Shown here piece after piece: positions 2,204-6,692 of a stretch of DNA of 37,175 nucleotides. This stretch comes from Bacteroidales bacterium (GTDB taxonomy: Bacteria; Bacteroidota; Bacteroidia; Bacteroidales; Muribaculaceae): NCBI GenBank assembly GCA_029218425.1, contig JAQXRH010000085.1:1-37175 (forward strand). The letters run 5' to 3'. Position 1 is the first letter of the stretch. Each line of letters opens with the position of its first letter. A program made the translations under genes and the position numbers. The notes beneath the pieces were generated by a model. That model was not told the origin of the DNA. It searched no databases and saw only the letters and a program-made list of their open reading frames with translations.

Positions 2204-3832
<1,629 letters not shown>

Positions 3833-3978: not shown

Positions 3979-4197
3979 GAATGGACAGCCGGGAGGGTAT
4001 GGAGACGTGGCAATGAATGTTCAGCCGGGTGATTTACGACGAATGGACAGCCGGGAGGACACGAGATGTGGCAATGAATGGTCAGCCGGGGGTTTTACGA
4101 CGAATGGACAGTCAGGAGGGCATGAGACGTGGCAATGAATGGTCAGCCGGGAGTTTTACGACGAATGGACAGCCGGGAGGGCATGGATGATGGCAGG
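3979..4197. repeat. 61-62 bp tandem repeat array in spacer
   Basis: Units begin at 3979, 4041, 4102 and 4163, with the last truncated. Each unit itself holds two related halves centred on AATGGACAGCCGGGAGG and AATGGTCAGCCGGGAGT, giving seven copies of the roughly 17-bp core. The unit length is not a multiple of three and no credible protein is encoded. It fills most of the 3821-4308 spacer between pyrG and the ATPase gene. The rest of that spacer is a purine-rich, GGTGGT-like stretch (4196-4250) and the ATPase terminator. Confidence 0.85.
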
Positions 4198-4263: not shown

Positions 4264-4306
4264 AAAGCGTGCAAATTTAAAGTCGGATTTTAAATTTGCA
4301 CGCTTT
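4264..4306 (-). terminator. Terminator built on 33-bp palindrome, downstream copy
   Basis: An 18-bp perfect stem (4264-4281 with 4289-4306) closes a 7-nt loop GTCGGAT. In the direction of the ATPase gene the stem begins 2 nt after the TAG stop and runs into five T residues (4262-4266 on the opposite strand), so it is a textbook intrinsic terminator. Its inner 33 bp (4269-4301) are identical, in the same orientation, to the palindrome at the gene's 5' end (5470-5502). Confidence 0.65.
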
Positions 4307-4308
4307 AG

Positions 4309-5466
4309 CTATTCTTTACTGTTGGCGAGCGTAGCGATATCCCTGATATTTATAACATTAGGTGGTATGGCATCGCCATCGTATACCACAGTCTTCCGGG
4401 CAATCTTATCCTCCAACAATGCTGAAAGGTAATTGATATTCTTCAAAAAGTCGGGGTTGAAAGTCTTAGCTGACTTGATTTCAAAAATGTCGTATTTAAT
4501 GCCGTTGGCTATCATGACATCGACTTCACGTCCGGAATTTTCGCGATAAAAACACATTTGGGCGAAGCTGTCGGCATTAAGTTGCATTTTAAGAAGCTCG
4601 ACAACGGCGAAATTCTCGAAAATGGCGCCACGAAGGGGGTGGCAGCTAAGCTGTTGCGGAGTGTTGATGCCAATAAGCCAGCATAGCAAGCCGGTGTCGT
4701 AGAAATATATTTTTGGCGTTTTGGCCAGGCGCTTGGATATGTTGGTATGATAAGGCTGAAGTGAAAATGCGATGAAAGAGGCTTTCAAAATGCCCAACCA
4801 GCTCTTAATCGTAGGGCTGCTCACACCCACTTCCACAGCCAGGCTTGAGGCATTAAACTCATTGCCGCAACGCGCGGCAGCAAGCCTGATAAAATGCTGA
4901 AAAGCATCAAGATTGGTGATGCCGCTCAATCGTCGTACATCGCGCTCGATGTAGGTAGAGTAGTAATTTCGATAGAACAATTCGTGAGGAATGCCCTTGG
5001 CTACCACTCCGGGATACAATCCTTCGACGAGCAAACGGTCGGTAGGGAGCAGCTTCCTGCCAGACACTTCATCAATCGAAAAGGGCAACAACGTAAACAA
5101 TGCCGCCCTACCCGCCAACGATTGGGTGACCGACTCTAAAAGAGCGAAATTACTACTGCCGGTAAGGACGAACCGCCGGCTATCATCGGCATCAACCACG
5201 AGCTGGACATACGACAACAGGTCGGGCACATGCTGCACTTCGTCGATCACCACCTCCTTGCCACAACTGTCGAGGAAGCCTTTTGGGTCGGTCTTAACTG
5301 CTTGCCGCAAACCGATATCCTCCATATTGAAGTGGCGATAATGCTCGAAAAGGTGATTGCAAAGCGTGGACTTGCCCGATTGCCTCGGGCCAGTGATTAC
5401 GATGACCGAAAAATACCGAACGGCATCGGCTACCGCTTCAGAAATTTTGCGAGGGAAGTATTCCAT
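4309..5466 (-). CDS. AAA ATPase with DUF4143 and nuclease-like C-terminus
   Basis: A 385-aa member of the AAA_14/DUF4143 ATP-binding family, whose cellular role is poorly known. Numbering from the ATG at 5466: Walker A GPRQSGKST (26-34), Walker B VVIDE (72-76), sensor-like LTGSSN (101-106), a winged-helix-like segment around 205-227, and DUF4143 motif YDTGLL (256-261). The C-terminus has GREVDV (Glu314, Asp316) followed by FEIKSAK (Glu329, Lys331), the spacing of a PD-(D/E)XK nuclease-like core. An upstream TTG (5475) is possible, but it lies inside the palindrome and the family starts at MEYFPRK. The gene stands alone and is bracketed by identical palindromes 3 nt before the start and 2-7 nt after the stop. 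Its GC is lower than that of pyrG. Confidence 0.9.
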   Translation of the reverse strand: MEYFPRKISEAVADAVRYFSVIVITGPRQSGKSTLCNHLFEHYRHFNMEDIGLRQAVKTDPKGFLDSCGKEVVIDEVQHVPDLLSYVQLVVDADDSRRFVLTGSSNFALLESVTQSLAGRAALFTLLPFSIDEVSGRKLLPTDRLLVEGLYPGVVAKGIPHELFYRNYYSTYIERDVRRLSGITNLDAFQHFIRLAAARCGNEFNASSLAVEVGVSSPTIKSWLGILKASFIAFSLQPYHTNISKRLAKTPKIYFYDTGLLCWLIGINTPQQLSCHPLRGAIFENFAVVELLKMQLNADSFAQMCFYRENSGREVDVMIANGIKYDIFEIKSAKTFNPDFLKNINYLSALLEDKIARKTVVYDGDAIPPNVINIRDIATLANSKE

Positions 5467-5469
5467 ATC

Positions 5470-5502
5470 GTGCAAATTTAAAGTCGGATTTTAAATTTGC
5501 AC
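5470..5502 (-). repeat. 33-bp palindrome at 5' end of the ATPase gene
   Basis: Two 13-bp arms (5470-5482 and 5490-5502) flank loop GTCGGAT. It is base-for-base the same as 4269-4301, including the asymmetric loop, so the two copies are direct repeats of a palindrome. This copy ends 3 nt before the ATG, where a ribosome binding site would lie, and its outer arm overlaps the promoter. It has no T-tract on the gene side, so it is unlikely to be a terminator here. Operator, leader hairpin or module boundary are all possible. Confidence 0.9.
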
Positions 5503-5533
5503 AAATATAAAGATTTATGACCAATTTTGCAAG
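5502..5533 (-). promoter_or_regulatory. ATPase gene promoter overlapping the palindrome
   Basis: On the minus strand there is CTTG (5533-5530; consensus TTTG), a 20-nt spacer, and TATATTTG (5509-5502; consensus TAnnTTTG). The last base of the -7 element is the first base of the palindrome, so transcription would start inside the palindrome's outer arm, giving a leader of only about 30 nt. Confidence 0.5.
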
Positions 5534-5859
5534 ATGGCACTGCGGAAAAGTTCAGCTTAGGCGTCGCCGATTAGGTCGCCGCTTAGATGCTGAATAGCCG
5601 CTACATAGACACCGCTAAATAGCCGCCGCTACCAAAATCGGGAAGCATAATCGGCGGAAATCGGGAGTAACCAGGATTTATCGAGATTTATCGAGAGTAA
5701 CCTGGATTAATCGAGATTAATCGAGAGAATCAGGATTTATCGGGATTAATCGAGAAATGGGGATAATGCGCGAATTACCGAGCTGGATAAAGCTGGAATT
5801 ACCGACTGGGGAAAGCGGGAATTGCAAGGCTGGTGGGCTGGGGGGAAGAGCCGGAGAGA
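5503..5859. repeat. Spacer with 30-bp and 23-24-bp degenerate tandem repeats
   Basis: This non-coding stretch separates the ATPase gene from the Lrp gene. Positions 5671-5759 hold three 30-bp units, each containing two copies of GATTWATCGAG. Positions 5772-5842 hold three unrelated 23-24-bp units beginning GAATTACCG or GAATTGC. Positions 5560-5650 show looser CCGC- and AATCGG-rich duplications. Apart from the ATPase promoter at its left edge I see no gene or RNA here. Confidence 0.7.
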
Positions 5860-6321
5860 TTATTCCACGTCGATGGGGAGGTGGCGGTGGATAGAGTGGT
5901 CGAGGGAGATGAGGGTCTCGGTGCCGGTGACTCCGGGTATTTTCTGTATCTTGTTGTTTAGCAGATCCATAAGATGCTCATTGTCGCGGGCGAATAGTTT
6001 GATAAGCATGGTGTAGGGACCGGTGGTGAAGTGACACTCGGTGATCTCGGGGATGCGGCGCAATTCGGGCACCACCTCGCGATAAAGGGCGCCACGTTCG
6101 AGGTTGACACCGATGAAAGTGCATGTATAGAATCCTAAGTCCTTAGGGTTGACATAGTATCCCGAACCGGTGATGACCTTTAGGTCGATCATGCGCTGAA
6201 TGCGCTGATGAATAGCCGCGCGCGACACGCCACACTCTACGGCCACGTCTTTAGAGGGGATACGGGCATTCCACATCACGATTTTCAAAATTTTCCGGTC
6301 AAGATTGTCAATTTTGTCCAT
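5860..6321 (-). CDS. Lrp/AsnC family transcriptional regulator
   Basis: A 153-aa feast/famine regulator. The N-terminal helix-turn-helix (about residues 8-50; LDRKILKIV, then PSKDVAVECGVSRAAIHQRIQRM) binds DNA. The C-terminal RAM domain (about 70-150; TFIGVNLERG, then ECHFTTGPYTMLIKL) oligomerises and usually senses an amino acid. Length and layout are standard for Lrp/AsnC, and the start is ATG. The gene is monocistronic with its own well-matched promoter about 115 nt upstream. The ligand and targets cannot be read from the sequence, and no metabolic gene is adjacent in the same direction. Confidence 0.93.
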   Translation of the reverse strand: MDKIDNLDRKILKIVMWNARIPSKDVAVECGVSRAAIHQRIQRMIDLKVITGSGYYVNPKDLGFYTCTFIGVNLERGALYREVVPELRRIPEITECHFTTGPYTMLIKLFARDNEHLMDLLNNKIQKIPGVTGTETLISLDHSIHRHLPIDVE

Positions 6322-6651: not shown

Positions 6652-6692
6652 AAGGCGATGTGTCAAAATTTGGGATTTTGACACATCGCCTT
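6652..6692 (-). terminator. Terminator of the acpP-fabF operon
   Basis: An 18-bp perfect stem (6652-6669 with 6675-6692) has loop TTGGG. It lies about 50 nt after the fabF stop and is followed on the minus strand by a T-rich tail (TTTCTTTAG). Confidence 0.7.

Follow-up and report, generated by a model that had tools for sequence, protein, structure and literature searches.

Paired palindromes around a DUF4143 ATPase gene in a Muribaculaceae genome: a clade-specific element at the gene's own promoter and a module that appears to come and go

In a genome of the Muribaculaceae (Bacteroidales), an ATPase gene of the AAA_14-DUF4143 family is bracketed by two identical palindromes, and our analysis of this locus, its relatives, and the wider family leads us to read the palindrome primarily as a cognate element lying over the promoter or start of DUF4143 family genes. 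We favor, with moderate confidence, the explanation that the palindrome is the gene's cognate element, that the ATPase likely binds it and controls its own promoter, and that the second copy permits deletion by recombination. The window, i.e., the whole stretch of DNA that was analyzed, comprises 37,175 nucleotides (nt) of contig JAQXRH010000085.1 (assembly GCA_029218425.1), and its relevant features are compiled in Table 1.

Table 1. Features of the window at and around the bracketed ATPase gene
Feature	Coordinates	Strand	Remarks
AAA_14-DUF4143 gene, PDC-S01 match	4309..5466	minus	385 aa; ATG 5466-5464, stop 4309-4311
Upstream palindrome copy	5470..5502		13-nt arms, 7-nt center; 3-nt gap to ATG
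Downstream palindrome copy	4269..4301		7-nt gap from stop
Extended hairpin enclosing downstream copy	4264..4306		terminator-like; T run follows on the minus strand
Predicted -7 promoter box (TAAATTTG)	5473..5480	minus	inside upstream palindrome; ends 6 nt before ATG; called by eye
TTTG	5502-5505		21 nt further up from the -7 box
pyrG (CTP synthase)	2204..3796	minus	conserved neighbor; marks the site in relatives
Lrp/AsnC-type regulator	5860..6321	minus	neighbor on the other side; collinear in genome G006 too

The initial annotation had reported two identical 33-bp palindromes, one lying 3 nt ahead of the ATG and the other 7 nt behind the stop codon of a single AAA/DUF4143 gene, with pyrG and an Lrp gene as neighbors and no transposase in sight, and our data bear out each of these observations. 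More specifically, a repeat search of the window returned both palindromes (GTGCAAATTTAAAGTCGGATTTTAAATTTGCAC) in direct orientation to each other, the exact direct repeat being even 34 bp long (4268-4301 and 5469-5502), and the neighbors were identified by Pfam as CTP synthase and an Lrp/AsnC regulator. Because the gene lies on the minus strand, the copy at 5470 is the upstream one and the copy at 4269 the downstream one. As RNA, each copy folds better than 200 of 200 dinucleotide shuffles. The downstream copy forms the core of an inverted repeat (4264-4306) with 21-nt arms that are 95% complementary, and this hairpin folds at -21.8 kcal/mol versus a shuffle mean of -6.5. A chance repeat is rejected, since the copies out-fold all shuffles and the core is found again next to genes of this family at other loci. 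We called TAAATTTG a -7 box on the basis of TAnnTTTG / TTTG, the promoter consensus of Bacteroidales. In the genome of origin (2.39 Mb in 98 contigs, 87% complete), the two sites in the window are the sole places matched by BLAST and by the core pattern described below, which gave no match when read backwards, and no Rfam family matched the window at gathering thresholds.

Several other repeats were observed nearby. A ~61-bp tandem repeat in three copies (GAGACGTGGCAATGAATG...) lies at 4002-4183, between the ATPase module and pyrG; ~10-bp periodic repeats (ATCGGGA/TTTATCGAGA...) occupy 5650-5758, between the module and the Lrp gene; and a perfect hairpin with 18-nt arms (AAGGCGATGTGTCAAAAT/ATTTTGACACATCGCCTT) is found at 6652-6692, which a TGTCAAAATGATTTTGACA hairpin upstream of pyrG in genome G021 resembles. 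On a 3.3-kb contig (C58), the genome of origin also carries another DUF4143 gene (L010) that is flanked left and right by copies of a 30-bp direct repeat.

The window protein belongs to the AAA_14-DUF4143 family, as both Pfam domains exceed their cut-offs (AAA_14, PF13173: E = 6e-26, 91.4 bits, cut-off 27; DUF4143, PF13635: E = 1e-45, 155.6 bits, cut-off 28.1), the AAA_22 and nSTAND3 matches being below cut-off. No match was returned for it by NCBIfam or by PHROGs. Likewise, no transposase or recombinase family was found by Pfam in the gene; this check covers the one gene between the copies, which the other ORFs of at least 80 aa there overlap on the plus strand. A sequence search for relatives of solved structure gave a best E value of 0.12, and identity to the STAND-like archaeal ATPases PABY2304 and SSO1545 (2qen, 2fna) is 15-16%. 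The model of the protein predicts an archaeal-type ATPase joined to a C-terminal PD-(D/E)XK nuclease fold. As a structure search with the whole model was filled by AAA chains, the C-terminal domain was modeled and searched alone, and its predicted fold came out near Can2 and McrC and, more weakly, near Holliday-junction resolvase. The domain shows both the fold and the D...ExK-type active-site residues of the PD-(D/E)XK superfamily, and DNA cutting is predicted for it. In the window protein, the Walker A residue is K32 and the nuclease-type residues are D316, E329, and K331. Across an alignment of 56 proteins, active-site-type positions in either domain are invariant or conserved to at least 90%.

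Among defense profiles, PADLOC PDC-S01 matches the window protein over residues 1-367 (E = 8e-99, best PDC-S01 model). PDC-S01 appears in the survey literature as a prevalent, single-gene phage-defense candidate (PMC12988326, PMC13356809); in the text of a 2026 survey, it is ranked fourth among the most common defenses across prokaryotes and described as an ATPase fused to a PD-(D/E)XK member (PMC12988326). This match and this listing speak for an explanation in which the array would hold the PDC-S01 protein silent until invading DNA, or else some product of a phage, sets it free, the bracketing being incidental. We regard that explanation as rather improbable, given that it leaves the second palindrome copy unaccounted for and that the antiphage role is itself a candidate one, the survey describing validation as pending for most candidates of the PDC kind (PMC12988326). 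The passages on PDC-S01 in these two papers do not say what the proteins recognize (PMC12988326, PMC13356809), and the words palindrom, inverted repeat, direct repeat, operator, promoter, and autoregulat are all absent from the main text of the former (PMC12988326). Nor was any description of cognate palindromes beside DUF4143/PDC-S01 genes found in the open-licence literature of PubMed Central.

An upstream palindrome or other repeat is the rule in the DUF4143 family, with a sequence that differs by clade. A PF13635 search of 198 genomes of the bacterial family gave a match in 171, above cut-off in 169. Our statistics started from 107 loci, namely 90 from the listed best matches and 17 from the genome of origin and its genus; 30 of the 90 had been returned by the search, and 60 were taken down the list by protein score, not by repeats, skipping one incomplete locus and those already included. 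We excluded nine genes whose upstream neighbor lay less than 100 bp away; the profile failed to recover a few others, or a locus end truncated them, and 96 DUF4143 genes were compared with 138 control genes from the same loci; 84, including the window's own gene, were left after removal of proteins at least 90% identical. Since this sample follows the strongest DUF4143 scores within one bacterial family, its rates are not valid for all prokaryotes. An upstream inverted repeat with a score of at least 12 was detected for 31/84 DUF4143 genes versus 7/138 controls. Because A+T content is higher upstream of DUF4143 genes (69% versus 56% for controls), we used dinucleotide shuffles, over which an inverted or direct upstream repeat reached z > 3 in 61/83 DUF4143 genes versus 23/137 controls, 22 of the 83 having no significant upstream repeat.

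The repeats follow protein relatedness to a limited extent. Mean numbers of shared upstream 8-mers were 22.3, 10.0, 5.0, and 4.2 for protein pairs of 65-90%, 55-65%, 35-55%, and <35% identity, respectively, whereas those in the stretch from -430 to -300 stayed at 1.2-1.6 in all identity classes; the correlation of motif with protein relatedness is significant (Mantel p = 0.001), with a rho of only 0.17 and an effect mainly above 55% identity. By eye, the repeats at the corresponding position of the other DUF4143 genes in the genome of origin and its genus are for the most part very different. Examples of such clade-specific palindromes are TTTGCAATTATAAAATC..ACTTTAGAATTGCAAA, TATGTAAATTTGCAGTG..ACTGAAAATTTACATA, a tandem double TAATCC..GGATTA, and ATTCACCAAATTT..AAATTTGGTGAAT. 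Because half-sites, again by eye, are alike within one array and differ from clade to clade, we infer that the protein is the factor that recognizes the array. The motif TAnnTTTG occurs within -70 to 0 of 77/96 DUF4143 genes versus 27/138 controls. In 62 genes with an inverted repeat scoring at least 9, we located the TAnnTTTG closest upstream of the ATG relative to the repeat: the two overlap in 24 genes, the motif is downstream in 26 and upstream in 4, and 8 genes have no such motif. As the sites overlap or lie upstream of the predicted -7 box, the protein would act through them as an autoregulator.

To follow the window-type palindrome across species, we scanned 84,980 species with the core pattern TGCAAATTTAAA-N3..11-TTTAAATTTGCA (24-base core), which occurred at 73 sites in 71 loci. 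The center measures 7 nt at every one of the 73 sites, though 3-11 were permitted; its sequence differs from site to site, and the dyad is nearly perfect. At 49 of the 71 loci, a DUF4143 ORF has its earliest in-frame start codon within 160 nt downstream of the palindrome, and at 29 of these within 10 nt. According to their titles, the 49 loci span several phyla and include KSB1, Fodinicurvata, a delta proteobacterium, Verrucomicrobiales, Nitrospirae, Spirochaetales, Clostridiaceae, and many Bacteroidota. The ATG itself lies within the dyad in Algoriphagus and several further cases. One further locus (L045) has an exact core behind the stop only and an imperfect copy upstream, and the remaining 21 have the core neither upstream of a DUF4143 start nor, in exact form, behind a stop. 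Close reading of two g17 loci showed that the window-type element there is an array, spanning ~80 bp, in which half-sites alternate. A common terminator scattered near unrelated genes is rejected as a general reading of the palindrome, given that it lies upstream of DUF4143 genes at 49 of the 71 loci. The observation that the initial annotation named as refuting, a palindrome widespread near unrelated genes, was thus not made, though 21 loci have no such gene beside them or one that is displaced or fragmentary. A dyad count over 50 distinct sites (one N-containing site dropped) gave 688/800 paired cells and 57 doubly changed ones versus shuffle maxima of 645 and 36; because these sites were partly chosen for being palindromic, we keep this excess out of the main evidence.

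The 21 gene-less core loci are of several kinds. Four hold a fragment of the gene (L056, L064, and L051/L206) or a displaced gene (L075), another ORF (DUF5128) occupies the gene's place at L077, and at 16 of the 21, tblastn found no DUF4143 remnant within 1.5 kb, the match at L038 being the palindrome itself. The family search yielded another 14 gene-less loci: 13 showed no remnant within 1.5 kb, several of these stretches ending at contig or locus ends, and one (L222) showed a weak remnant. Clean excision as the sole origin of solo sites is partly rejected, because the four loci with a fragment or displaced gene represent decay.

The layout of the sites raises the question of a site-specific recombinase that acts in trans on the palindromes, either as Xer- or loxP-like sites or as REP/RAYT-like repeats. 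The 13-7-13 arrangement is reminiscent of tyrosine-recombinase sites; a nearly perfect dyad with a changing center, a quite different array layout in other clades, the mere two copies and lack of dispersed repeats in the genome of origin, and the lack of a recombinase family in the window gene by Pfam all argue against such a factor, and we consider it highly improbable.

Repeats on both sides of the gene are a feature of a minority of the family. The upstream sequence recurs within 200 nt behind the stop (either orientation, score of at least 16) in 19/83 genes versus 2/129 controls, and in 56/6806 cross-locus pairs; the 19 include repeats other than arrays (e.g., L244, L135, and L238). As most sampled genes (64/83) have no second copy at this threshold, it does not suffice to regard the palindromes as termini of an element, and in this respect the original proposal does not hold as stated. 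Where they do occur, the copies can be long and nearly identical: direct repeats extend over 70 bp at 100% (L264), 68 bp at 100% (L265, one copy spanning -62 to +5 relative to the ATG, the other starting at the stop codon), 70 bp at 98.6% (L261), 75 bp at 94.7% (L272), and 62 bp at 98.4% (L291). Similarly, among 40 regions fetched for matches to the window sequence, window-type palindromes were found on both sides of the gene in L198, L201, L202, L203, L204, L214, L230, L232, and L233; the two are identical in L202, and both carry a common local variant in L214, L230, L232, and L233. In L206 and L207, two window-type palindromes flank a mere fragment of a DUF4143 gene.

L261, L264, and L272 represent one locus in three species of one genus (g23), with array-gene-array in each. 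Within each genome, the arrays agree by BLAST at the identities given above, whereas between the species, the arrays are 62-82% and the genes 69-73% alike at the DNA level; in global alignment, the two L272 copies reach 86.7% versus 82.4% for the best between-species pair. Because arrays agree better within genomes than arrays and genes do between species, the copies appear, on this sequence comparison, to have been homogenized or renewed together in at least two of the three; the evidence comes from one locus in three species, with a clear contrast in two, and plain gene conversion could also account for it.

These observations bear on a static regulatory explanation, according to which the upstream palindrome is an operator, the downstream one is a terminator or a second operator (forming a loop), the module is immobile, and losses are random deletions. 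Such an arrangement fits the -7 boxes that overlap or follow the repeat (24/62 and 26/62 genes, respectively), the retention of array-gene-array at one locus in three species, and the majority of sampled genes without a downstream copy, and the terminator-like hairpin predicted for the window's downstream copy makes a terminator role for that copy possible. Yet repeats of 68-75 bp behind the gene (L264, L265, L261, and L272) exceed what a terminator needs, and the states found at single sites, described next, run counter to immobility: the one-array state in G073, the solo palindromes at pyrG in G006 and G007, and the absence of the module from 15/22 g17 loci. We therefore judge the static explanation unlikely and return to a cognate site whose second copy permits deletion.

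Occupied, solo, and empty states were observed at the same sites in related genomes, all of which are assemblies without reads, many of them metagenomic. At pyrG, which was found in seven of eight genomes of the genus (no pyrG match in G003; the states given here cover all of the seven except G005), the window has palindrome-gene-palindrome, G006 and G007 (two species) have a single palindrome and no DUF4143 gene, and G001 has the same glycosyltransferase-pyrG neighborhood with no palindrome; none was seen in the 677 bp looked at in G002 or the 1,300 bp in G004. The initial annotation had asked whether related strains have zero or one copy at this spacer, and related species show both states. 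In G006, pyrG and the Lrp gene are collinear with the window, and glycosyltransferase and sulfatase genes lie between the palindrome and Lrp; because G006 holds them there, these two genes were either lost from the window or never in it. At the g23 locus (nine genomes, with states read in four, leaving out G161, G172, G149, G137, and G029), three genomes have array-gene-array and G073 has one array without the gene; on the left, the G073 alignment runs through the array over 1,359 bp at 90%, and on the right, the flank aligns at 88%. For the g17 locus, 101 genomes were searched, 30 loci were fetched, and 22 had both flanks: 5 with half-sites and a gene-sized spacer, 15 with a 93-320-bp spacer and no exact half-site, and L326 and L321 as the remaining two. 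G299 has an array, with no DUF4143 gene found in the surrounding 4.1 kb; in G386, the left-flank match extends into the array region; and at the L265 locus, the right flank gene recurs among 101 genomes.

Because relatives hold at the same site one copy without the gene, or nothing, the gene and its cognate site form, as far as these assemblies tell, a module that comes and goes. The initial annotation had taken it to be moved or lost as a unit: the sites with one palindrome and no gene (G006, G007, and G073) or with no palindrome (G001) uphold loss as a unit; any active movement would be putative, and the losses would be explicable by ordinary recombination between the repeats. A different bracket was found in L244 (genus g15), in which the module lies between copies of the 3' end of a neighboring PRK-domain gene (59 bp, 98.3%), not of the array, and that 3' end is single in G145; the locus (G021:C72, around 1336-2688) looks as though an element had inserted and duplicated a long stretch of its target. 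Elements 92% identical between two genomes of the same genus have unlike right flanks, the similarity extending ~50 bp to the left of the inner palindrome, where one contig begins, and ~25 bp to the right of the downstream one; no fixed ends could be defined from the aligned elements. Different DUF4143 genes lie beside a shared flank in several genera (L245, L261, L277, L285, and L286), a possible hot spot, and in L245, this flank is the phenylalanyl-tRNA synthetase beta gene.

Relatives of the DUF4143 gene also occur on plasmids and in phage records. Nine of 50,697 phage records carry one, all named 'Bacteriophage sp.' and from human fecal samples, and the record examined closely is marked UNVERIFIED. 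A phage origin is rejected, given 0 exact matches to the core pattern in viral_contigs and the missing PHROGs match. Among 11 plasmid and phage loci, an inverted repeat above the 95% mark of shuffles ends no more than 17 nt from the start in five (L388, L390, L391, L397, and L398; L391 is unannotated and its start guessed); L389 and L392 have a dyad at the start by eye only, L393 and L394 have a short repeat 30-35 nt up from the start, and L395 and L396 have no upstream repeat. In L392 (Emticicia pEMTOL02), the DUF4143 gene sits inside an arabinose operon, in opposite orientation, between the L-ribulose-5-phosphate 4-epimerase gene and araA.

Patchy presence at fixed loci, the L244 bracket, the 92% identical elements with unlike right flanks, and the copies on plasmids and in phage records, together with the conserved active-site-type residues of both domains and a predicted fold near Can2/McrC and weakly near Holliday-junction resolvase, are compatible with an active one-gene mobile element, whose ATPase-nuclease would cut or pair the array, excise a circle of array plus gene, and reinsert it with ~34-75-bp duplications. 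No circle, strain-level insertion, or fixed ends were seen among the loci examined, most sampled copies are missing the second array, and we consider this explanation distinctly unlikely. Its extension to the family as a whole, i.e., that DUF4143/PDC-S01 genes constitute a huge class of one-gene mobile elements that recognize their own clade-specific array, silence themselves through it, use it for excision and insertion, and leave solo arrays as scars, is a bold proposal that we find unlikely.

The simplest account is that the gene and its own recognition sites probably travel together, and that a second copy of the sites would make the gene removable. According to this preferred account, the ATPase with its predicted nuclease domain would bind the array at its own promoter, and the bound protein would regulate its own gene; recombination between the two palindromes would remove the gene, with a single palindrome left in place, driven perhaps by the PD-(D/E)XK domain cutting the site, by RecA, or by replication slippage. 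More generally, we infer that the module is gained and lost via pairing of repeated sites or of other direct duplications of ~34-75 bp.

A clade-specific cognate site beside its gene offers a ready substrate, so that assays of binding, cutting, autoregulation, and excision can all use known sequences; gene-less sites may mark former positions of the module. Should the module be selfish, counts of 'defense systems' in genomes and metagenomes would need rethinking; if the mobile explanation were true, one of the commonest prokaryotic 'defense' genes would be largely selfish, with sites of its own.

Compared with known systems, the module combines features of several. The window protein matches the PDC-S01 profile, and the cognate palindromes, arrays, and bracketing seen here find no mention in the survey's passages on PDC-S01 (PMC12988326). 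Insertion sequences and transposons differ from the module in that the window gene has no transposase family, and tyrosine-recombinase cassettes (loxP, Xer, or pdif-like) in that the gene has no recombinase and the center varies by site. In REP-RAYT systems, a gene is flanked by its own palindromes, and solo palindromes occur elsewhere. The window gene is analogous in both respects; unlike RAYT, it encodes an AAA ATPase with a PD-(D/E)XK-fold domain rather than a Y1 (HUH) transposase, and its genome (87% complete) has two copies rather than a dispersed family. With homing genes and site-specific integrating elements, the module shares, by analogy, a nuclease-type gene that is present or absent at a fixed site, gene-free alleles (G006, G007, G073, and 15/22 g17 loci), and, at L244, a bracket that repeats the 3' end of the target gene; unlike homing genes, the window-type module, in the loci read closely, sits between genes or at a gene end and carries the site itself. 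Finally, it resembles the autoregulated operators of repressors and toxin-antitoxin systems in having a dyad or array at the DUF4143 gene's own promoter, and differs from them in that the upstream sequence recurs behind the gene in about one-fifth of the sampled genes.
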